Source: a virus
Length of the DNA stretch: 47,009 nucleotides
IMG/VR virus record: IMGVR_UViG_3300001769_000019
Location: 1-47,009 of that record
Reading direction: 5' to 3' (one strand)
Positions 4,212 through 38,979 of this stretch are shown one piece after another (within the stretch, counting starts at the first letter, position 1; each line of letters starts with the position of its first letter). A program made the position numbers and the translations under genes. The notes below the pieces were generated by a model that was not told the DNA's origin, did no database searches, and saw only the letters and a list, made by a program, of their open reading frames with translations.

Positions 4212-7200
4212 TTATTCCTCGGTGATAATGAGTCGTACCGACTGACTTCTAACAAACTGTTGCGAGTGATAGCGAGTCTGGTTTGAAACAATTACCCTGT
4301 ACGAGAAATTGCTCAACCCTGCTGTTGTGTCTGTGAATGTCCACGTGCCGCCCAGCTGCTCGTCTGTTCTGCATCTGTCAACCTCATCAATGTATGTTTT
4401 GGTTACTGTGCCCTGTTCGTATTGCGTTTGAATGGTTTCCCAATTGCCGCCGCCAATCTTCCGCTGCAGCGTTACATTGCAACTTGGCATTACGGCGCCA
4501 GGCTCACTGCTACATTGCCCATCGACGAACGACAATGCGTTCCATCCAACTCCGAACACTACGTTTTTTTGACGGCCGTTTGTGCCGAATGGCCCTACCT
4601 CGATTGACGGGTTTAGCGTTATCAGTGTTGAACGAGCGCTATTACTCAATACGCCGGCGCTCAGACTTCCCCCAAAATACGCATCGCCAGAAATATCTCG
4701 CCACTGCGTTGCGTTGGTCTTTGTTGCTAGCGTGTAATCGGGTTTACTGCCGTTCATGAATTTTGGGCCGTAGTAATACGTGAGTGAATCGGGACCGAGG
4801 CCATCGGGGTTGCTGAGCTCCATGTAACCTGCCCCGATATTTTCAGACGCATTAGAGCGCAGCGTGCCGTTAAACACATAGTCATCCGCCTCTGTATCAA
4901 AAAACAAACGTGAGGCGCCCTTACTGTTTTGAAATATCACACGCATTGTTTTGAATATGATTTCTGATACATCTGGCGTGGCGCCCAGCTGTATGAGGGC
5001 GGCGTTTCCGTTGGCATCAACAGCGAGTTGCGCAACAGCACGGTATTCCTCTAGTTCACCATCAACCTCGGCAAGAAGGGTTAGTGCAGTATTCGCTTTC
5101 CCTTCGGCTGTTTCTGCTGTGCTTTTTATTCCCGTGATCGCGCTTGCGTTAGTCGTTGCCTTACCTTCAGCTGACTCGGCCGTGGTTTTAGCTTGCTGTG
5201 CAATTGTGTTAGTGGCACTCAAACCATTAGCACTATCATTGACCGCGTTTGAAATACTTTGGATGGCGTTAGTGTTAGTCGTCGCCTTACCTTCAGCTGA
5301 CTCGGCTGTCGCTTTTGCTTGCTGCGCAATTGTGTTGGTTGCTGTTAAATCTTCGTTCAGAATGCTTACATCATTCTCGATTCTTGTAATGGATGAGGCG
5401 TTTTGCGCTGCGTTCGATGCAGCGTTTTGCGCTGAAACTATAGCTTCCTGTGCGAGAGTAAAGTTAGCCTCCACATTTTGTTCTATGTTTGTTGCCCTAC
5501 CCTCAATAGCGCTTAAAGATATTGCGTTTTCATTAGCTTTTACCTCAACTAAATCAATGCGAGATAGCGCGCCGGTTAGGTTGCCACTCAAACCCGATAC
5601 GCTAAGGTTTAACTGCTCTATTGCGCTAGCATTGCCCTCAGCATCTGTCTCCACTTGCGATAAGCGCTTATTGGTCGCGGTAATGGCGTTACCGTTTGAT
5701 AATGTTACCGTTTGCAATGAACCAATATCTTTAGCGAGAGAGCCTTCTGGCGAAACGTCAATCTGAAGTTGGTTAACCGCCAGTGCAACCGACTCATTGG
5801 ATTCGGCCTCTTGCATATAAGCAGATAAGTCATTAACTGCCTGCTGAAGCAGTGCCGCTTGCACATCGTAGGTTTGGATTTGCTGTGAGGCGAGCCCAGC
5901 TACTTGTTCTGTAATACCCAAGCTATTTACTTGCTGTTGAACATCGCTAATTGATGACTCAACACCTTCAATGTCTTGCTCAAAGCTTTGAACAATATCT
6001 TGAATAGTACCGGTTTGACCGTTTAGGAACGTGGCCGCAGATACAGCCTTCTGAATGACATTGTTATCAATAAGTTCTTGGCGTTTGGCTTCTAGCGCAA
6101 TGATAGTGTCTAGCGCATTAACTTTTTGTTCAACGTTGCTAACCGTTATTGCGTTTTCATTGAAATAAGACGTTGATACACGTTGCGCTATTTCTGCTTC
6201 ATTGGCATTAATTGCTAGCTCGGCAGCATTAACCCTTGACGTTATGTTAGCCAAGTCCTGTGTAGTGGCGTCTGCTTTACCAATGCTAATCGATGATATT
6301 TTAAATTCATCACTGACAGAGGCGCCCAGCACCAAGCGAACGCGGGTAACTGTACCTGTGTAGCTCGCCATCGCAGAGAAATCAATTAGCAGTATCGACG
6401 CTTCTTCTACGTAGTTAGCGTAAGTCTCAACTGAGCTATCATCACGTTCGATAATAACAGTGCCAGACCAACCCGAACCAGCTAGGCGCTGTAGCGATAC
6501 ACGAATTAGCTTGTTTTCGCTTGCTAGATAGTTAAGCGTATTATTCTCAATATCGCCGTGCGTAACCGTAATTTCGTTAAGGCCAGCGGTTAGCGTTCCA
6601 TTAACTGCTTCCCAGCCCTGGGCGCTATCGAAGAAGTTGAACGCATAGGCAGGCTCTAACGCTGAAATTGACTCACTTACAATAGCTGTGGCTTTCGCGG
6701 TGATAATGCCAGGTACTAACGAAAGTTCTGAAGATAAACTTGTTATTGCATCTTCAGTCTCACCGATGCGCTTAGAAGCAAGCTCGACTTCGCCAGACAC
6801 ACCATCGATCTTCAACGATGCTTCAGTGAATTTATCATCAGCATAGTTGTAAGCGCGATTAACAATAAGGCCGTTAGATGGGTCACGGTAGACAACAGCG
6901 TTGGTAAGTTCTTCGCCTTGCTCTATTCTACGCGCCAGTTCGATTTGATACGTTGCGTTTTCACTGATGCTTTGCAGTAAGAGTGCCTGCGCCGCTTCAG
7001 TGCTAATACGTTCTTGCTGAACAATGCTTAGCGTTTGTGCTTCAAAATCCACAAAGCGATTGTCAATATCTTCCACACTTAACTTTAAGCTCTCGATATC
7101 GACTGTGATCGGCGAAAGAATAGGCTCAATGATTTCAGTGATAGGCTGCGCATCATTGTGCGTTGTAGCCTCAACCGATAACCAATCAGAAACGCCCAGA

Positions 7201-9014: not shown

Positions 9015-9640
9015 TAAGGTAACTCCGGTATAGGAAACTTCGAATACGGTCTAGTCGTGTCGTAACCGTATGAGGCTGATGAAGGTGCTTTTCTGCCCCA
9101 GTAAATTTTGCGTTTAGCCTTTGCAACATGATCAAAAGCAGTATCAGTTGGATAGTTCCGCTGCTGGCTCTTAGTGTTTGTTCTAGTACCGGCTTCTTTA
9201 TCAAAGTCAGCCCAAACCGAAGTGATATTTGCCAGTATCTTTCTTTTTTCGGGGTCTAAATCGCGCGAGTCTAAAAGCCCTTCGAAGACATTGCTGGTGA
9301 AGATGAGGCCAAGATCATCATAGTGCTGCTCATAAATCGTTACAGGACCATTCATCCAGCCTTCATTAAGAAACAGGGGCACAAAGCTATTTTCGTTTGC
9401 GTCTATCTCAATGCCGATATCGTTAGTCTTCGGCTCTGAAGTTGTTTCAATATCATCAATGCTTTCATCATCGATGTAGCCGGGGTAATAGGTTGCGCCT
9501 GCAAAATCAACTTCGGCATCAGAGTCAGTGATATACGCCCACTCACCATTGATTTTCATTTTCACCAGATAAATAGTCTTCCTCCCCGCGCGGTAGTTTT
9601 CTTTCAACCGTTGCAGGGTTATTGAATCCAGTTGCTTCAT
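9014..9640 (-). CDS. Tail tip assembly protein (DUF2163/gpL-like)
   Basis: Protein of 208 residues. The N-terminus YRAGRKTIYLVKMKINGEW, the middle SDAEVDFAGATYYPGYID, and the C-terminal VWADFDKEAGTRTN followed by the SQQRNYPTDTAFDHVAKAK segment match the phage tail-hub-associated family that lies between tape measure and J in many lambda-like and Vibrio-type siphophages. It probably helps build the tail tip. It overlaps the 195-residue gene upstream by 4 bases and abuts J. No NlpC/P60 peptidase (gpK) or gpI homologue is found in this interval. Confidence 0.6.
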   Translation of the reverse strand: MKQLDSITLQRLKENYRAGRKTIYLVKMKINGEWAYITDSDAEVDFAGATYYPGYIDDESIDDIETTSEPKTNDIGIEIDANENSFVPLFLNEGWMNGPVTIYEQHYDDLGLIFTSNVFEGLLDSRDLDPEKRKILANITSVWADFDKEAGTRTNTKSQQRNYPTDTAFDHVAKAKRKIYWGRKAPSSASYGYDTTRPYSKFPIPELP

Positions 9641-10224: not shown

Positions 10225-12161
10225 TAACGAGGCCTTTGCAGTTGTGCTTGCACTTTGCGTATAAACTGTTTTGGTAGCTTATCAACGCGAGAAAGCATTT
10301 CTTCAGGGGAAAAATTGCCGCCATTGAACGTGATAGGTGCATTAATGCTCACCCCCTCACCTTGACCTCGGGTTAAGTCGATTACTTTTTCACGCGGGTG
10401 AAGCATGGCTAACTTACCGCCCTTTCCATCCATGCCACCGATACGAGCACCGGAACCAGTAAAACCACCACCGTCATAGGAGGCAACCGCGGCGCTGGCA
10501 GATAATCCGGCTATCGCTGCGGCGATTGGTTGTGTGATAGAGAGTGCGGTACCCATGGCAGCTGGCGCCATTGCGGGGCCAACAATTGGAATCGCAGCCG
10601 TACTCTGGAACGCGTTAAGACCTGCCATCAATGATGATGCTTGGGCATTCAGCGCTAAACCTGATGCGCCAGCTACTGCTGCACTTTTACCCACAAACAT
10701 TTGAACAAGCTGATACGCCAACCATTGCGCGGCCATTTGACCAAGCGCGTTTACAACGCTTCGAGCCATACCTTGCATTACGCCTTGGAAAGCATCACCC
10801 AAGTTTTCAGAATCGAAAACAACCGACTCTAAGGCATCACCCATCTGCCCAGAAAAATTCTCAATCGTGGTGGCTGAAAGCTCATCAAAGTTTGTTAAAT
10901 TAGACTGCGCAGCTTCAAGCCAGCTCTCCCAGAAAGATTGGTTTCCTTCTTGAAGGTTTTCATAAGCTGTGAAACCTCGCTGCTCGAAGTTCTCCCAGAA
11001 CATGCCAGCGTTTTCTGCCATGGACTCATCAAAGCTAAATGCATTAGCGTTAATGTCATCAATGAGAGCAAGACTATTGAGAAAAGAGTGCTCTACTTCT
11101 TTGGTGGCTTCTTCGACCTGCTTTGTAATTGGTGTGGTATCAATATTTGTTGCGGCGCCAGATAAATCAAAAGGATTTTCTAGCCCCTTAAAAATATCGT
11201 CGGTTTCACCATAACCAAGCTCATATTCAATTGGCTCACCTTTAATTTTTCTGGTGAGCTTGTCATACTGATCAGATAGGTATTCTGCTCGCTGCGCCAA
11301 CTTATCCATTTCAGCAGTATCGACATTGGCACCAACTGCTTCTTTAAATTGAAGAAATGAAAGTTTTGCCTCAGTGACGAACTTGTCAATTTCAATAAAG
11401 TCGCGCTCGAAACGAACAATAGAGCCTGTATAAAAATCGTTTATTGCTTCACCGATATCGGCTAAAGGCTCTACGAAAGCTGACGCTAAGCTAAACTTTA
11501 ACTTTTGCCCTGCCGCTTCTAGGCGTGCCATTTCATCAGAGAGATCTTTGACCTTAGTTACATCGGTTTCCGATATAGCTAGGTTTAGATCTCTGTATTC
11601 CTGCGCTAAGTCATTTACAACTTTTCCATTGTTTTCTAATGCAGGAATTAAAAGCGTGGCATCATTGGCAAGCGACTCCATGTAGAATACTTGCTCTTTG
11701 GCTGATACGTTCGCATCGTCCATTGCCTTTTTAACAGCAATAAGGACTTCGCTGCTTGAAAGGTTTTTCAATGCATCAGCGGTCAATCCGACCTTGGGTG
11801 CAACTTGCTCGAAGAAGTCTTTGAACGGGCCTGCACCTGTAGCTAGGAAATCACCCAGTTTGTCTTGAACATCTTTCGAAATATCAGCGAACTTTTCTTG
11901 GCTGATATTGAACTGCCCATAGGCGTAACTTAGCGCCTGAAACTCTTCAACAGTAACGCCAGCAAGCTTGGCTTGGGCGTCCAACTCTTTCGCTGAGTTA
12001 ACTGCACTACTTGCCATTACCGCAAAAGAAGCAGTAACGCCAGCTACTGCAGCTGCGGTAGTAACTGCCTGCTTGGTTACCGTTCCTAGCTTTGAGTTGA
12101 TCGCGGTGAAAGCCTGCGCGGTTTTATCCTGCGCTGAGATAATAAATTCGTATTTACTCAC
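10224..12161 (-). CDS. Tail tape measure protein
   Basis: Protein of 645 residues starting on a GTG (MSKYEFIISAQDKTAQAF), an opening typical of tape measure proteins. Residues about 30-60 are a hydrophobic Ala-rich helix; the middle is long helical and coiled-coil; residues about 480-570 are hydrophobic, consistent with the membrane-interacting part used in DNA ejection. The C-terminus has the family's usual SYDGGGFTGSG and LHPREKVIDLTRGQ. Length would suggest a tail of roughly 100 nm by the usual 0.15 nm per residue rule (inference). Its start overlaps the end of the frameshifted chaperone by 8 bases. Confidence 0.92.
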   Translation of the reverse strand: MSKYEFIISAQDKTAQAFTAINSKLGTVTKQAVTTAAAVAGVTASFAVMASSAVNSAKELDAQAKLAGVTVEEFQALSYAYGQFNISQEKFADISKDVQDKLGDFLATGAGPFKDFFEQVAPKVGLTADALKNLSSSEVLIAVKKAMDDANVSAKEQVFYMESLANDATLLIPALENNGKVVNDLAQEYRDLNLAISETDVTKVKDLSDEMARLEAAGQKLKFSLASAFVEPLADIGEAINDFYTGSIVRFERDFIEIDKFVTEAKLSFLQFKEAVGANVDTAEMDKLAQRAEYLSDQYDKLTRKIKGEPIEYELGYGETDDIFKGLENPFDLSGAATNIDTTPITKQVEEATKEVEHSFLNSLALIDDINANAFSFDESMAENAGMFWENFEQRGFTAYENLQEGNQSFWESWLEAAQSNLTNFDELSATTIENFSGQMGDALESVVFDSENLGDAFQGVMQGMARSVVNALGQMAAQWLAYQLVQMFVGKSAAVAGASGLALNAQASSLMAGLNAFQSTAAIPIVGPAMAPAAMGTALSITQPIAAAIAGLSASAAVASYDGGGFTGSGARIGGMDGKGGKLAMLHPREKVIDLTRGQGEGVSINAPITFNGGNFSPEEMLSRVDKLPKQFIRKVQAQLQRPR

Positions 12162-12800
12162 TATTCACCTGATTATCAATTATTCGCATGGCTTCAAGGT
12201 ATTTGTGTGGCTGTTCGAGAACGCCACCTGACAGGCACAGTTGCCCCTGCTTGTAAAAGCCATAGAGATTTAAAAGGTTGTTACTTTGCGGTGTTACTTG
12301 ACCTAGAGGGCAAATGCGGGTTGATTCAATTTTGCCATCTATTTTTATATCCCATTTATCGAAGGGTGCGGGGTTAGTTTCGTCGCAGTGCCTACCCCAT
12401 GTGCAATTGTCGCAATTAAACGCATCACGTTTTTTAGCAACTTCTACTGCGATAATTAGTTTTTTCTTTCTGACTCTGCCAGCGCTGACTTGTTATAAAT
12501 GGCCTGTGCTACGTGAACGAGATCTAATGCGGGAATTTTTGAAATCTGCGAGGCATCCTCTAAACCATAAGTAAGAAGTAACTTCACACCTACCGAATTC
12601 ATTTTGTTAATACCGTTTTTAACCTCGTGACCATCCATCATTACTTCCATGAACTGAAGCGAATTAAGTGGCTTAATGCGGTAGCCTTTGGCGTTATCTT
12701 TAAGCAAAGGCTTTTCATCAGCGCCTTTAATTAGCTCTCCATCATCATTCCTTTGATAAGCGCTCAGTGGATAGTGAGTTTCAACTGCTAGTGCTTGCAT
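12154..12800 (-). CDS. Tail assembly chaperone long form (gpGT-like), by -1 frameshift
   Basis: The 114-residue chaperone ends with codons AGA AAA AAC TAA. A slip of -1 on A_AAA_AAC opens an uninterrupted 101-codon frame running to a stop at 12154-12156, giving a product of about 215 residues. The extension begins LIIAVEVAKKRDAFN and has a Cys motif CDNCTWGRHC followed by a later CPL and CLSGG; there is no usable start codon early in this frame, so it can only be made by frameshift. This is the same layout as lambda G/GT, in which the long form recruits the tape measure. The extension ends 8 bases inside the tape-measure gene. Confidence 0.85.
12456..12800 (-). CDS. Tail assembly chaperone short form (gpG-like)
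   Basis: Protein of 114 residues between the tail tube gene and the tape measure, the invariant place for the tail assembly chaperone. It is mostly helical and contains RIKPLNSLQFMEVMMDG and a C-terminal helix ALDLVHVAQAIYN. Sequence identity to lambda gpG is not evident, so the call rests on position, size and the canonical slippery heptamer at its 3' end. It would coat the tape measure during tail assembly together with the frameshifted form. Confidence 0.8.
   Translation of the reverse strand: MQALAVETHYPLSAYQRNDDGELIKGADEKPLLKDNAKGYRIKPLNSLQFMEVMMDGHEVKNGINKMNSVGVKLLLTYGLEDASQISKIPALDLVHVAQAIYNKSALAESERKN
12459..12465 (-). promoter_or_regulatory. Programmed -1 ribosomal frameshift slippery site A_AAA_AAC
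   Basis: On the - strand the heptamer AAAAAAC sits in frame as A_AAA_AAC directly before the TAA stop of the chaperone. It fits the X_XXY_YYZ rule exactly. The -1 frame stays open for 101 codons. Confidence 0.85.
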
Positions 12801-34785: not shown

Positions 34786-34986
34786 TTACTTATTAGGGAC
34801 TTTTGAGTCCCTCAAAATATTCTTTATAGCCATTGATGATGGGCAAATGTCGGTTAATACAGAGCCAAGACCTTCAAGCATTGCTCGTTGCGCTGCTTCC
34901 TCAAGACTTACGCCAAGCTCATCTGCATGTTTTTGTAGTAGTTCTAACTCTTCGTTACTGAGCTCTATTTTTTCTTCGGTCATCAT
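34786..34986 (-). CDS. Small acidic early protein
   Basis: Protein of 66 residues. The N-terminal two thirds form one or two acidic helices (LSNEELELLQKHADELGVSL, EEAAQRAMLEGL), a pattern related to short ribbon-helix-helix or antitoxin-type proteins; the tail is VPNK. No function assigned. Two consecutive ATG codons at the start; either could be used. A small hairpin GGGACT-TTTG-AGTCCC lies at its 3' end (34796-34811). Confidence 0.5.
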   Translation of the reverse strand: MMTEEKIELSNEELELLQKHADELGVSLEEAAQRAMLEGLGSVLTDICPSSMAIKNILRDSKVPNK

Positions 34987-35039: not shown

Positions 35040-35228
35040 CTAAGCTGCTGTACGCTCTTTACTTCCGAACGAAACAGACTCTTTTAGGCCACGCATGAAA
35101 ATGTCACGAACAATTACCGCTTTTTGTCCGCCAGTATTTTTTACCAGCGCTTCAAGCAAGTCATTAACGTCATCATCTAAACGAACTTTGACTTCGTTCT
35201 TTTTGATTTTTCTTGGGTCTGCGTACAT
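35040..35228 (-). CDS. Ribbon-helix-helix DNA-binding protein
   Basis: Protein of 62 residues from the ATG at 35228 (a longer frame to 35405 overlaps the Cro-like gene in another frame and is not the real start). EVKVRLDDDVNDLLEALVKN followed by TGGQKAVIVRDIFMRGL is the CopG/Arc ribbon-helix-helix pattern. It probably regulates early promoters. It starts 17 bases after the Cro-like stop. Confidence 0.7.
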   Translation of the reverse strand: MYADPRKIKKNEVKVRLDDDVNDLLEALVKNTGGQKAVIVRDIFMRGLKESVSFGSKERTAA

Positions 35229-35244: not shown

Positions 35245-35421
35245 TTAACTGGCTTTTTTGTATTCTTCAGGTGGGTAAATATCAGGGCGCAGCTCATATC
35301 GAGGTGTTCCTGTAATTTTTTCAAGTTCAATAACTCTGTTTGCGGGTATTTTTGTTCTGAACCAGAGGTATACAGCTTGCTCTGATATATCAAAATGCTT
35401 CGCAATATCTTTTGGGTTCAT
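35245..35421 (-). CDS. Cro-like repressor
   Basis: Protein of 58 residues: MNPKDIAKHFDISEQAVYLW then FRTKIPANRVIELEKITGTP, then RYELRPDIYP. The HTH plus IPANRVIELEKITG...LRPDIYP ending is the signature of the YdaS/Cro family. It is the first gene transcribed leftward from the promoter at 35444-35472 and lies divergent to the repressor gene, as Cro does in lambda. It would bind the 15-bp operators and shut off the repressor promoter. It is short and overlaps a longer spurious frame, so easily missed. Confidence 0.85.
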   Translation of the reverse strand: MNPKDIAKHFDISEQAVYLWFRTKIPANRVIELEKITGTPRYELRPDIYPPEEYKKAS

Positions 35422-35432
35422 GTCGGATCCTA

Positions 35433-35506
35433 TAAATCATTACTTTATAAAGCGTAGCTTTATGGAAAACAAATATCAAGTAATTTATGATTAAAGAAAC
35501 ACTTTA
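35433..35506. promoter_or_regulatory. Operator cluster O_R-like (three 15-bp sites)
   Basis: Sites TAAATCATTACTTTA (35433-35447), TAAAGCGTAGCTTTA (35448-35462) and TAAAGAAACACTTTA (35492-35506). Consensus TAAAGC-NNN-GCTTTA is palindromic. The first two abut, and the third lies at the start of the repressor gene. The matching cluster at 38900-38967 confirms the motif. Binding by the repressor and Cro-like protein is inferred. Confidence 0.8.
35444..35472 (-). promoter_or_regulatory. Leftward early promoter (pR-like)
   Basis: On the - strand: -35 TTGTTT (35467-35472), 17-bp spacer, -10 TATAAA (35444-35449). The middle operator (35448-35462) lies in the spacer and the first overlaps the -10. 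It drives the Cro-like gene and the whole leftward half. Confidence 0.7.
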
Positions 35507-35519
35507 TGAAAGACGCGGT

Positions 35520-36077
35520 ATGAGCAAAGAGTTAGGAAAGCGGATAAATGAGGCGATCCTAAGGTCGTCATATTCTAAAGCTGAAATTGCGAGGACTTTC
35601 GGAATAACCGCTCAAGCTGTAAATGGCTGGGTAACCACAGGTAGGATAAGTAAGGAGTTATTAATAGAATTAGCTAACCTCATAGGTGCAAACCCAAATT
35701 ATTTGTTATTTGGTTACAATACAAAAAGTGACGAGGTTGGCTTAGGAGATAACGAGGTCGCCTTGTTTCTCGATGATAACCAACGCGATTTACTAAAGGC
35801 TGTTGCAAAAATGCATGGTGTTTCTGAGAATGAAGCTGCGCAGATTGCAATGAGGAAAGGTATTGAAAATTATAAAAATCGTGAACAAAAAGGTGGATCA
35901 AAGCAGAGATTTAGCATAGGTGATATTAATTCAGCTATAGCGGTCAGCTCACCAAGAACAACAGCTATACTCAATCAAATAAATCATCTGATTGATGAAG
36001 GTATTGAACTGTCAGAACAAGAAGAATCAATTATAAAATCAATCTTAGATTCGGTTAAAAAGCGCCAGAAGGAGTAG
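35520..36077 (+). CDS. CI-like HTH repressor without LexA-type protease domain
   Basis: Protein of 185 residues from ATG 35520. An in-frame ATG at 35487 gives 196, but the third operator lies over that stretch; neither start has a good ribosome site. The N-terminal HTH (about residues 1-60) reads KRINEAILRSSYSKAEIART, FGITAQAVNGWVTTGRIS, ANLIGANPNYLLFG. The middle (FLDDNQRDLLKAVAKMHGVS) is helical and recalls a ribbon-helix-helix-like or dimerisation part. No S24 peptidase motifs are found. It heads a rightward operon with a HipA-like kinase. Likely the lysogenic repressor, binding TAAAGC-NNN-GCTTTA. Confidence 0.75.
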   Translation: MSKELGKRINEAILRSSYSKAEIARTFGITAQAVNGWVTTGRISKELLIELANLIGANPNYLLFGYNTKSDEVGLGDNEVALFLDDNQRDLLKAVAKMHGVSENEAAQIAMRKGIENYKNREQKGGSKQRFSIGDINSAIAVSSPRTTAILNQINHLIDEGIELSEQEESIIKSILDSVKKRQKE

Positions 36078-36085
36078 GTGTAGTA

Positions 36086-36832
36086 ATGGAAGTGAATTTT
36101 GGAACAGTTACAGGAACGCCAAGACCACTAAGTTTAAAAACTGCAAATGCTGTTTACGTTGGTCAAATTATTTTAGGTGACGGCAGCTCCAATAGAGCTT
36201 ACATCAAGAGAGTTTCACCTGAAAAAATTGCTATTGAATATGCAATTGCAGAGTTAACCAATCAGTGCGGTTTGAGCTCTCCTAAACCTGTAATTACTAA
36301 CTGGCATGGTGATATCGTTTTCGCGAGTGTAGACGCAAATACTCCTTCTCTGTTTAGTCTGGCAAAGATGGGGGATGAGAAATCGATATTGCGAGCAATA
36401 AACAACACCGAAACTATAAATAAAGTGGCGAGCTTTGATGAGGTCATAAGCAACCCAGATAGAAATCAGCAAAACATACTTATCAAAGGCGATGGTGATG
36501 TAATTCTTATCGACCACGAGTGTGCGCTCTCTTCAGAAAAAGACAGGCCTACGGACAAGAACCAAATTCTTGAAATGTTAAAAGGAAATATTCACCCAGG
36601 TGATCAACTCAATATGCACAGAGCGTTTAAAGATATTGAGAAGCACATAAGCGCTTTTGAGTGTATTTCAACGTCAGATGTTGCAAATTTACTCTACTCA
36701 GTTAATATTTTGAATTATGAGCAGCGCGATTTGTTCATTGAATATATTGATTTTCGCGTTGCAAATTTAACGCAGTTATTGAAACAGCAAATGGGTATAA
36801 CTAGCCAAATAGGGTTAAATTTCAGTGCTTAA
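36086..36832 (+). CDS. HipA-like protein kinase
   Basis: Protein of 248 residues, 8 bases after the repressor, with AAGGAG ribosome site. Kinase-type landmarks: a Gly/Ser loop ILGDGSSNRAYIKR with Lys41, an N-lobe helix AIAELTNQCGLSSPKPVI, then SNPDRNQQNILI (catalytic Asp125, Asn130) and LIDHECALSS (Asp143-His-Glu as the metal-binding motif). This matches the HipA-like family pattern FD..x.N.DR..NxL...IDH. Standard HipA is about 440 residues, so this is a short form. A HipA-type kinase phosphorylates a translation-related or other partner protein; its target here is unknown. Confidence 0.75.
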   Translation: MEVNFGTVTGTPRPLSLKTANAVYVGQIILGDGSSNRAYIKRVSPEKIAIEYAIAELTNQCGLSSPKPVITNWHGDIVFASVDANTPSLFSLAKMGDEKSILRAINNTETINKVASFDEVISNPDRNQQNILIKGDGDVILIDHECALSSEKDRPTDKNQILEMLKGNIHPGDQLNMHRAFKDIEKHISAFECISTSDVANLLYSVNILNYEQRDLFIEYIDFRVANLTQLLKQQMGITSQIGLNFSA

Positions 36833-37688
36833 AGTAAGTGACATGGAAGGTATGTTTCCGAATCTGCCGAAGGCGAGCGGAGAATACAAAACTGTTTTTA
36901 TAGAGCCGATAGCACTTTCTGGGGAAAGGTTAGCCGCCTGTACAATCGCTCGCCTTTCATCTGGTGAGTATAAAGTTATGCAGACCATTCCTAGCGCAAC
37001 ACTTATTTGCATGTACGGCGCGCAAGCCAAGGCAATGGAAGGTCTTATTCGCACAGTTATAAATGATGCCGACACTTGGCTTAGCAACAATTACCCTCTT
37101 TTTGATTACCAACCACCGTTTTCCAACACATTTAGTTCTGAAACGCATAGTTTGAATGCCGATAATATCGAACAACTTTTAAAAGCATCTATTCAAAATA
37201 CCGCCTCTCTCGCTCCGCTCAACTTCGAAGAAGAAGAGCCAGAAATTGTCGAGGCACGTAGAGGAAGCGGAGGGCTAGCAAAAAGATTCGTAGCAAAGGT
37301 CAAAGGTTCCGTTATAGATTTATCACCAAATTTAAGTAAAAATTTTAATGTGAAAATTGGCGGCATGCATAAATACCATTTTATTGGGAATGGTTATGCA
37401 GCAAACTTGGGGGCTATGAATCCTGCAATGCCCTATAATTCAGTTAACGAAGCGAAACGGTTGCTTTGGGATCTTGCGGTTGTAGACCAATATGATTGGA
37501 CTATAGAAAAGCAAGAGTTGATTATATATATGCCCGAAGACGACAATATCACCTACAGCAAAAAGCAGTATCAAAATGCCAAAGATACACTTGCTAGATT
37601 TGAAGATGAGGCCGATCAAAAATCCATAAGGTTAATCACAACAAGCTCCTCTGTTATTGCCAGAGATAGGTTAATAAAAGCAGCTTGA
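36825..37688 (+). CDS. Partner protein of the kinase, family unknown
   Basis: Protein of 287 residues from GTG 36825, overlapping the kinase by 8 bases. An N-terminal alpha/beta part YKTVFIEPIALSGERLAACT is loosely like the DUF3037-type partners often seen beside short HipA-like kinases; I am not sure. The middle is acidic (LNFEEEEPEIVEARRGSGGL). The C-terminal part (about 170-287) is alpha/beta: KYHFIGNGYAANLGAMNPAM and ELIIYMPEDDNITYSKKQ. It is the third member of the operon; I cannot assign a reaction. Confidence 0.6.
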   Translation: MLKVSDMEGMFPNLPKASGEYKTVFIEPIALSGERLAACTIARLSSGEYKVMQTIPSATLICMYGAQAKAMEGLIRTVINDADTWLSNNYPLFDYQPPFSNTFSSETHSLNADNIEQLLKASIQNTASLAPLNFEEEEPEIVEARRGSGGLAKRFVAKVKGSVIDLSPNLSKNFNVKIGGMHKYHFIGNGYAANLGAMNPAMPYNSVNEAKRLLWDLAVVDQYDWTIEKQELIIYMPEDDNITYSKKQYQNAKDTLARFEDEADQKSIRLITTSSSVIARDRLIKAA

Positions 37689-37800: not shown

Positions 37801-37974
37801 GTGTTATGGATACCAGAAGTTTTTAAAGAACGGATTGCAGAACGTGACAGCGAAGATAAGCTATTAAAAATCATTGGTAGCGATATCGATAATCATAGAA
37901 ATATTGAAGAAGTTCCATCGAGCATATTTACTCGCATGTCTGCTATAAAAGCCAAAGCGCAAAAGAGAAGTTGA
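37801..37974 (+). CDS. Small protein, start uncertain
   Basis: Frame of 57 codons from GTG 37801 (LWIPEVFKERIAERDSEDKL onward). The ribosome site GGAGG abuts this GTG and better serves ATG 37806, which is in another frame and stops after 6 codons. So either GTG is used, or the gene starts by +1 frameshift, or it is slightly damaged. It is helical and charged. Function unknown. Confidence 0.4.
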   Translation: MLWIPEVFKERIAERDSEDKLLKIIGSDIDNHRNIEEVPSSIFTRMSAIKAKAQKRS

Positions 37975-37976
37975 TT

Positions 37977-38207
37977 ATGAAGCTTAATGACATTCAAAAA
38001 CGATTTTTAGCTGGCGTTGGCTCTGTTTTTGCGATTATGCCATCAACGAGCTATGCTGACTTTACTCCTAGCCATGATGCAAAAGAACGTATGGACTCTT
38101 ACTGGCAAGACACAGGGAAGCACCTCAGAGTGGCTTTAAATAATTATGAGCAAAAGCAGACACACCGCAAACAGAAACAACCAACAACAACAACAACAAC
38201 AAAATAA
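37977..38207 (+). CDS. Small protein with possible signal or hydrophobic N-terminus
   Basis: Protein of 76 residues: MKLNDIQKRFLAGVGSVFAI then MPSTSYADFTP, and a charged rest ending in a Thr run encoded by a CAA-type repeat. SYA-D could be a signal cleavage site, or the segment may simply be a conserved helix. It overlaps the DUF2335-like frame by 62 bases in another frame. Function unknown. Confidence 0.45.
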   Translation: MKLNDIQKRFLAGVGSVFAIMPSTSYADFTPSHDAKERMDSYWQDTGKHLRVALNNYEQKQTHRKQKQPTTTTTTK

Positions 38208-38544
38208 GTTACAATCTATCGCCACTAAGGTCGAGTACAACGGCCCTATCCCGCCTGCTTCTGAAATGGCGAAATACTCTGAAATTTTAGCGAGCGCTCC
38301 TGAGAGGATTTTGTCGATGGCAGAAGAAAGCCAAAGACACGCCAACATGATGGATGTAAAAGCTATCGACGCACAGCGCAGAGAAATTAGGCGCGGCCAA
38401 GTATTCGGACTCATCGTGCTGGGGGCTTTTTCCTCTTCTGCTTACATTGCCTATTTAGGGCATCCTAGTGTATCTGCCGTTATCGGCGGCACGACTATTG
38501 TTGCAATTGCAACGGCATTCATACTAGGTAGAAAAATTAAATGA
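38146..38544 (+). CDS. DUF2335-like membrane protein
   Basis: Protein of 132 residues. GPIPPASEMAKYSEILASAPE and RILSMAEESQRHANMM fit the DUF2335 pattern (GPlPpP..l..Y..i.p....rIl.maE.Q..H). Two C-terminal membrane helices follow (about 82-98 and 107-125). N-terminus has a Gln run encoded by (CAA)7. Function unknown; membrane position and lysogenic cassette suggest a role in the lysogen, e.g. exclusion. Start not certain. Confidence 0.65.
   Translation: MSKSRHTANRNNQQQQQQQNKLQSIATKVEYNGPIPPASEMAKYSEILASAPERILSMAEESQRHANMMDVKAIDAQRREIRRGQVFGLIVLGAFSSSAYIAYLGHPSVSAVIGGTTIVAIATAFILGRKIK
38182..38202 (+). repeat. Simple (CAA)7 repeat in overlapping frames
   Basis: Seven CAA units lie in the overlap of two genes. 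They code for Thr in the upstream frame and Gln in the DUF2335-like frame. As a trinucleotide repeat, changes in number would leave both frames intact. Confidence 0.9.
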
Positions 38545-38561
38545 AGCATTTTTAGCATTGT

Positions 38562-38825
38562 ATGGGTAGCTTTGAGTCGAAGTTAGATAATATTGATAAA
38601 GCACTCTCAGAACTCAAGTCAGACTCTAAAGATAACAACGCGTTATTAGGAAAGTTAGAGAAAAAGTTGCTGTTTGCATCCGCATTCCTCGCTGGCGGCA
38701 TCTTGGTCGGCGGCTTTCTAGTGAGCAACTTTATTGATGGAAAATTTAATTCAGTCATTAAAAAGATTGAAGCCGCAGAGAGCACGAAGATAGATAAAAC
38801 CCCAAAATCAAAGAAATCTGAATAA
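38562..38825 (+). CDS. Small coiled-coil membrane protein
   Basis: Protein of 87 residues: an N-terminal coiled coil (KLDNIDKALSELKSDSKDNN) then one membrane helix (about 37-58, LLFASAFLAGGILVGGFLVS) and a Lys-rich C-terminus. Last gene of the second accessory cassette, followed by a terminator. Function unknown; likely inner membrane. May act with the DUF2335-like protein. Confidence 0.55.
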   Translation: MGSFESKLDNIDKALSELKSDSKDNNALLGKLEKKLLFASAFLAGGILVGGFLVSNFIDGKFNSVIKKIEAAESTKIDKTPKSKKSE

Positions 38826-38850
38826 CCCCCTACCTTATTTGAAATTATAA

Positions 38851-38873
38851 AACCGCCAACAGGCGGTTTTTTT
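38851..38873 (+). terminator. Intrinsic terminator ending the immunity cassettes
   Basis: AACCGCC, short loop, GGCGGTT followed by a T-run of seven on the + strand. It ends the lysogenic cassette before the rightward early promoter. Confidence 0.85.
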
Positions 38874-38899
38874 GTGCGCTGAATAAAATTCATAAAAAA

Positions 38900-38967
38900 T
38901 AAAGTAACGCTTTAATATTGACCTTTAAATAAAGCAATGCTTTAATGTATTGTAAAGCAGTGATTTA
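38900..38967. promoter_or_regulatory. Operator cluster O_L-like (three 15-bp sites)
   Basis: TAAAGTAACGCTTTA (38900-38914), TAAAGCAATGCTTTA (38930-38944) and TAAAGCAGTGATTTA (38953-38967). Same consensus as at 35433-35506. Centre spacing is 30 and 23 bp. The middle site lies between the -35 and -10 of the rightward promoter. Confidence 0.85.
38918..38946 (+). promoter_or_regulatory. Rightward early promoter (pL-like)
   Basis: -35 TTGACC (38918-38923), 17-bp spacer, -10 TTTAAT (38941-38946), start near 38953. The middle operator occupies the spacer, as at the leftward promoter. It drives the recombination and integration operon. Confidence 0.75.
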
Positions 38968-38979
38968 TAAGGTGCCCCC

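Follow-up and report, generated by a model that had tools for sequence, protein, structure and literature searches.

A divergent HipAD-like kinase pair in the rexAB position of a P24-like Alteromonas phage, proposed to act in phage exclusion

The immunity region of phage lambda carries two phage-exclusion genes, rexA and rexB, behind the repressor gene. RexABpp of Pseudomonas putida set a precedent for an exclusion pair behind a CI-like repressor (PMC12894663), and paaR2-paaA2-parE2 of E. coli O157:H7 CP-933P did so for a toxin-antitoxin pair, with YdaS acting as Cro and the paaA2-parE2 pair being addictive (PMC8630535). Pairs of a HipA-like kinase and a DUF3037 protein have been described as HipAD, DS-6 and PDC-M66. 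DS-6/HipAD was found to defend, required its catalytic residue, and was modelled as a toxin-antitoxin pair (PMC13092281); according to a citation there, the first report of HipAD came from a study of prophage defences in E. coli. Deletion of the HipA-like kinase abolished defence against Bas51, deletion of the DUF3037 gene was toxic, and the HTH gene of the Retron-Sda1 operon was dispensable for defence (PMC12548924). In Pf prophages, the KKP kinase module phosphorylates a silencer and in this way governs lysogeny (PMC11341870).

Layout of the immunity region

The window, the whole 47,009-nt stretch of viral DNA analysed, was found to be near-identical to Alteromonas phage P24 (MK241539) at the genes compared, with 100% identity for the kinase (K) and 99.7% for the third protein of the operon, its partner (X). 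The temperate-type genes of the window include an integrase, a helicase, an O-like protein and a divergent small YdaS/Cro gene. In the P24 record, the repressor, kinase and partner genes are labelled as an HTH protein and two hypothetical proteins, and the 58-residue Cro/YdaS-like gene as a "putative repressor". The features of the region are as follows.

35245 to 35421, minus strand: Cro/YdaS-like regulator, 58 aa, divergent from the repressor (Pfam YdaS_toxin E 6.4e-12, P22_Cro 1.5e-5)
35432 to 35507, no strand: OR-like operator cluster, 17-bp dyads at 35432-35448, 35447-35463 and 35491-35507
35487 to 36077, plus strand: CI-like repressor (HTH protein), 196 aa, DicA/RacR-like (PHROG transcriptional regulator E 9e-12)
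35910 to 36077, plus strand: conserved C-terminal repressor tail, residues 142-196 (the last 55), with SPRT at S155-T158; kept in the sister phage L003
36086 to 36832, plus strand: HipA_2/PI3K-fold kinase, 248 aa, proposed toxin (PADLOC PDC-M66A E 1.3e-7, PF00454 7.6e-5, PF20613 1.1e-3)
36825 to 37688, plus strand: partner protein, 287 aa, divergent DUF3037-type/PDC-M66B, proposed antitoxin (phrog_21150 E 8e-37; hhalign)
37801 to 38825, plus strand: further small immunity-region genes (57 aa; DUF2335 membrane protein at 38146-38544; 87 aa)
38850 to 38875, plus strand: terminator-like hairpin followed by T residues (aaaccgccaacaggcggtttttttg), read off the sequence, immediately before the second operator cluster
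38899 to 38968, no strand: OL-like operator cluster, dyads at 38899-38915 and 38929-38945 and a weaker one at 38952-38968, preceding the rightward early genes

The first-pass annotation had read a repressor, a HipA-type kinase and a third gene as one operon between two operator clusters, and the three overlapping or nearly abutting open reading frames were confirmed in that arrangement. The clusters are likewise real. The 17-bp dyad WTAAAGYNNNRCTTTAW, with at most one mismatch, occurs five times in the 47 kb (0.44 expected; 0 of 100 shuffles), at 35432, 35447, 35491, 38899 and 38929, so that all sites lie within 35432-35507 and 38899-38945. The order cro, OR, cI, K, X, small genes, OL and rightward early genes is that of the lambda immunity region, with cI and a two-gene cassette flanked by OR-like and OL-like operators, a divergent cro, and K and X in the place of rexA and rexB. 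A promoter scan gave a result no better than shuffles, and Rfam gave no match.

The three small genes between X and the second operator cluster, of which the DUF2335 gene is a moron according to PHROGs, are possibly additional exclusion genes expressed by the lysogen. To the left of cro, two small ribbon-helix-helix proteins on the minus strand (35040-35228 and 34786-34986; matches to phrog_4113 and DUF6290) resemble residues 88-135 of the repressor, a ribbon-helix-helix or RelB-like stretch.

The kinase and its DUF3037-type partner

The product of the second gene matched the PI3_PI4_kinase, HipA_2 and PADLOC PDC-M66A profiles. Its AF2 model, built from 46 homologues, has a pLDDT of 93.0 and a pTM of 0.89, and the top Foldseek matches of the model were PI4KB, VPS34 and CtkA (E 5e-7 to 3e-6), while a PDB sequence search with the kinase returned nothing real. 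The HipA-type motifs noticed earlier proved genuine: among 94 non-redundant homologues, the catalytic residues K41 (97%), E51 (99%), D125, N130 and D143 (100% each) are essentially invariant, and N123 and R126 (100%) and H144 (96%) are similarly conserved. As judged from the model, gene 2 is a kinase with a PI3/4-kinase/CtkA fold, of HipA_2 type and with intact catalytic residues, as in HipAD, PDC-M66 and DS-6.

The X gene starts with GTG, overlaps the kinase gene by 8 bp, and encodes a protein whose AF2 model has a pLDDT of 90. X had been regarded as unrecognised, a view that profile comparison ruled out. Against the PDC-M66B/DUF3037 set, hhalign aligned residues 14-281, the full length, with an E-value of 5.5e-6 (controls: 0.17 for the reversed profile, 0.56 for the kinase profile), at an identity to M66B of only about 8%. 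Single-sequence Pfam matches of X to DUF3037 were below threshold or absent, and PADLOC and Pfam single-sequence scans alone would miss this identity. Relatives of X carry a DUF3037 motif at the N-terminus ("TGEYLNVGVLF" in phage D14P, "CEFLNVGVVFA" in Halomonas-family prophages), and X has the DUF3037-type N-terminus and second C-terminal domain of the HipAD, PDC-M66 and DS-6 partners; as a two-domain protein of this type, it is not a HipS-like small subunit as in HipBST. Fold searches with X gave only weak XPF/ERCC1/CdiA-CT-like matches (E 5e-3 to 0.1), and no nuclease claim is therefore made. No RexA or RexB family was found among the Pfam, PHROG, NCBIfam and PADLOC matches of K and X. Two Pseudomonas plasmid proteins of 133-186 aa (L007:4971-5372 and L008:4806-5366), with no kinase annotated nearby, resemble only the DUF3037-like N-terminal half of X.

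In all collected M66 loci, a kinase recognised by the K profile (bona fide M66 kinases at 1e-9 to 1e-20) is followed by an overlapping or abutting DUF3037 gene. This shared order, together with the hhalign match, assigns K-X to the kinase-DUF3037 family (PDC-M66, DS-6, HipAD) as one of its divergent members; judged by domain make-up and gene order, it thus belongs to a published defence family (PMC13092281, PMC12548924) and is not the undescribed system proposed at first.

The pairing of K and X is near-obligate. Scanning viral contigs for the kinase pattern yielded 77 loci, 75 of them with an ORF, and X was directly downstream of the kinase in 71 of the 75; tblastn recovered X sequence in three of the other four, most exceptions being contig ends or missed ORFs. 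In bacterial genomes, X was found in 43 of 46 kinase loci, using an HMM built without these loci. The two proteins co-diverge (rho 0.83, 18 tail loci), and the kinase-first order with overlapping or abutting genes is kept in nearly all relatives, again as in HipAD, PDC-M66 and DS-6.

The upstream gene varies. All three genes occur together in many other phages, so that neither outcome that would have refuted the first-pass annotation, lack of a kinase fold or lack of co-occurrence, was observed. A repressor or other HTH gene precedes 34 of the 57 non-redundant pairs from viruses (16 repressors with the SPR tail described below, nine with a "DDMLKM" tail, six S24 CI proteins and three other HTH proteins); one further pair follows an Arc-like gene. 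No HTH or repressor gene was recognised directly upstream in 22 viral pairs, which follow lysis, tail or other genes, or in 30 of 33 non-redundant genome pairs, these labels resting on ORF and pattern rules and not on full annotation. K-X was also found at lysis, tail and chromosomal sites. With such varied sites and upstream genes, K-X is best described as a mobile unit of two genes that frequently, though not invariably, lies behind cI; the repressor does not belong to it as a rule, nor is it an obligate component like the HTH protein of HipBA and HipBST, and expression from the repressor promoter is not universal. The answer to whether the three genes always sit at the repressor locus is thus no, and the earlier proposal that the lysogeny repressor is the antitoxin or the kinase substrate is conjectural; it is weakened by the occurrence of K-X with unrelated repressors, including S24-peptidase CI proteins, or with no HTH protein, and by the dispensable HTH gene of Retron-Sda1. 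The survey rejects the repressor as an obligate antitoxin as a general rule; by analogy with the published pairs, we propose that X, rather than the repressor, is the antitoxin.

Several of these loci deserve separate mention. A second repressor type, mostly Pseudomonas-like and confined to one K-X clade, has a conserved "DDMLKMLEHGM" at its C-terminal end, and its gene runs into the start of the kinase gene (L018, L021, L023, L026, L030, L035, L037, L045, L052, L104), a second possible repressor-kinase link. K-X lies behind lysis (Rz-like) or tail genes rather than cI in L055, L057, L059, L060, L062, L073 and L078. In Acinetobacter phage qsb1 (L002, 10622-12807), an Arc-like gene, K and X are found among the clustered tail genes, next to a gene of the BRO family.

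We consider it likely, with a probability of about 0.65, that the locus is a lysogenic-conversion operon of a temperate P24-like Alteromonas phage, in which the lysogen expresses a HipAD-like exclusion toxin-antitoxin pair from the rexAB slot. The defence role of K-X is suggested by its published homologues, as are the roles of toxin and antitoxin. The repressor promoter would express repressor, K and X in the lysogen, where X would restrain K. Infection by another phage would disturb the balance between the two, and the freed kinase would phosphorylate an essential host target, probably a translation-linked one as with HipA, so that the infection aborts. The C-terminal tail of the repressor would probably couple it to K or X.

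The repressor tail and the immunity swap

The repressor consists of an HTH domain (about residues 14-78), the ribbon-helix-helix-like stretch (about 88-135) and the tail; an internal ATG at 35520, which would give a protein of 185 aa, may be the true start. No match to an S24 peptidase domain was found for the 196-aa protein in the Pfam, PHROG or NCBIfam listings, and the RecA route of inactivation would thus be absent. The tail, with the pattern [A/S/V/I][S/T]P[R/N/K][S/T] followed by a helix and "G.L[ST]..D..LL..IA.R", recurs in about 18 distinct and otherwise different repressors.

Searches with the tail that were blind to the kinase returned only P24 and D14P from 50,697 phage records (tblastn), only Marinobacter M3C from 72,556 plasmids, only the seeds and L136 from viral contigs, and, from about 1,738 genomes, only known cases, L150-L152 and L144, whose protein is that of L136. 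One extra match in the phage records (E 4) fell in a 16S methyltransferase gene and was dismissed as chance. Every full tail found had a kinase directly downstream, and X as well wherever the sequence extends. Five independent kinase-blind matches (D14P, L136 and L150-L152) were full tails upstream of K-X, compared with a kinase near 0 of 10 tail-like proteins without the SPR element, several of the ten being closely related; as the tail seeds came from kinase loci, very divergent kinase-less tails could have escaped these searches. The partial matches, L145 and those of Halomonas-family genomes (L146, L153-L160), were not accepted as full tails and were assigned to a different class because the SPR element is missing from them and no kinase lies close by. 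The new element is a class of tail-bearing repressors tied to K-X, the tail having been seen so far only next to kinase pairs.

A natural immunity swap was revealed by L003 (IMG/VR 2521172685), a heteroimmune sister phage of the window. Up to about 35285 the two share 95-100% DNA identity; the value then sinks to about 0.3 over the DNA-binding part of cro, OR and the DNA-binding part of the repressor, recovers at about 35920 to mostly 0.8-0.95 through the tail, K and X, and drops again past X. In L003, both operator clusters are built from another dyad, GTACCTNNNAGGTAC, found at 6782 and 6817 (OR-like) and at 9205 and 9231 (second cluster). Immunity specificity was exchanged as a set, comprising the DNA-binding domain and both operator clusters, whereas the tail, K and X were retained. 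The early region of L003 also encodes (11969-12610) a leucine-rich-repeat-like protein of repeated "TDLPEGLNVGGxLxLxGTQI" units.

The restriction of the tail to K-X loci and its survival of this swap count in favor of repressor involvement, and a link between the repressor and K-X is plausible; of the earlier idea that lysogeny, dormancy and exclusion are wired together, the tie of lysogeny to phage exclusion stands as plausible. One tentative extension, to which we give somewhat less than even odds, is that the repressor works as a third HipAD-type component, the kinase pair binding or phosphorylating its [S/T]P[R/N/K][S/T]-helix tail, so that a growth-arrest kinase would be gated by the lysogenic state, the tail being reused by heteroimmune phages with other DNA-binding domains. 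A comparably tentative version casts the repressor as a sensor or guard, whose tail binds K or X and whose loss, displacement or titration by an incoming phage (through an antirepressor or foreign operators) would free the kinase, making lysogeny control and exclusion one switch. In its favor are the restriction and swap data, the presence of tail repressors beside K-X lineages that are deeply separated (16 rows, 5-6 changes), and the absence of an S24 domain. Against it, K-X occurs with S24 repressors and without any repressor, the HTH gene is dispensable in Retron-Sda1 (PMC12548924), and, among the 18 tail loci, tail distances did not significantly follow those of K (rho 0.15, p 0.15) or X (rho 0.22), but tracked the DNA-binding part more (rho 0.35). 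Tight co-evolution of tail and kinase was thus not found, and the data give no clear sign of a closely co-evolved contact; the tail could instead act as a generic signal, or be no more than a dimerization element of the repressor.

A somewhat less probable alternative is that K and X are unlinked morons merely parked behind cI, with the tail serving only to dimerize that repressor class. The varied sites and upstream genes and the negative co-evolution test agree with it, but it leaves unexplained why full tails never turned up without K-X, and we regard it as unlikely. More doubtful is a plain addiction module that stabilizes the immunity region or prophage, with exclusion as a by-product, as proposed for paaR2-paaA2-parE2. 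CP-933P has the same layout of YdaS on the minus strand and CI and toxin-antitoxin pair on the plus strand, and its pair is addictive (PMC8630535); the breakpoint of the swap against L003 also falls inside the repressor gene, with K-X staying where it was. However, the studied homologues of K-X confer phage defence (PMC12548924, PMC13092281), and for the K-X pairs located among lysis and tail genes, a part in defence or as some other cargo is more probable. Least probable is an SOS-independent induction route in which the kinase inactivates the repressor by phosphorylating [S/T]P[R/N/K][S/T]. Both hydroxyl positions are S or T in every tail seen, no peptidase domain is present, and KKP offers a precedent of lysogeny control by silencer phosphorylation (PMC11341870); against this, S/T-P-x-S/T is also an ordinary helix N-cap.

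Comparison with known systems

The preferred reading, a lysogen-expressed exclusion pair, puts divergent HipAD-like genes into the slot that lambda-like phages classically use for exclusion, across marine and soil Gammaproteobacteria, and it would help to annotate some "unknown" genes behind cI (phrog_3162, phrog_21150). The tail offers a concrete, testable repressor-toxin link and a short mark of repressors in the K-X arrangement. If the kinase pair does read the tail, this would open a direct way to study how a prophage detects a threat to lysogeny and converts it into abortive infection in the absence of SOS cleavage.

K-X resembles HipAD, DS-6 and PDC-M66 in its two protein families, as judged by profile comparison, in its overlapping genes with the kinase before the DUF3037 protein, and in its similar sizes and mobile-element setting. 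Unlike these systems, it is very divergent (about 8% identity for X; weak Pfam and PADLOC matches) and is embedded in a phage cI operon between operators, with a special-tailed repressor. With lambda cI-rexA-rexB and RexABpp, it shares a two-gene cassette behind the repressor and between operators of the OR/OL type, but the proteins are unrelated, being a kinase and a DUF3037-type protein. The paaR2-paaA2-parE2 locus likewise has a CI-like repressor, a divergent YdaS as Cro and a downstream toxin-antitoxin pair in the immunity region; there, however, the toxin is ParE, the antitoxin is PaaA, the order is antitoxin-toxin, and no kinase is present. HipBA and HipBST also combine a HipA-superfamily kinase with an HTH protein in one operon, of three genes in HipBST, whereas in the window the order is HTH-kinase-DUF3037, the third protein is not HipS, the kinase is of the short HipA_2 type, and the HTH protein is a phage repressor, HTH genes being often missing from K-X loci. 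Finally, the KKP of Pf prophages is also a prophage kinase module that links lysogeny control with phage defence, but it consists of eukaryote-like Ser/Thr kinases and a phosphatase and shares no family with K-X.
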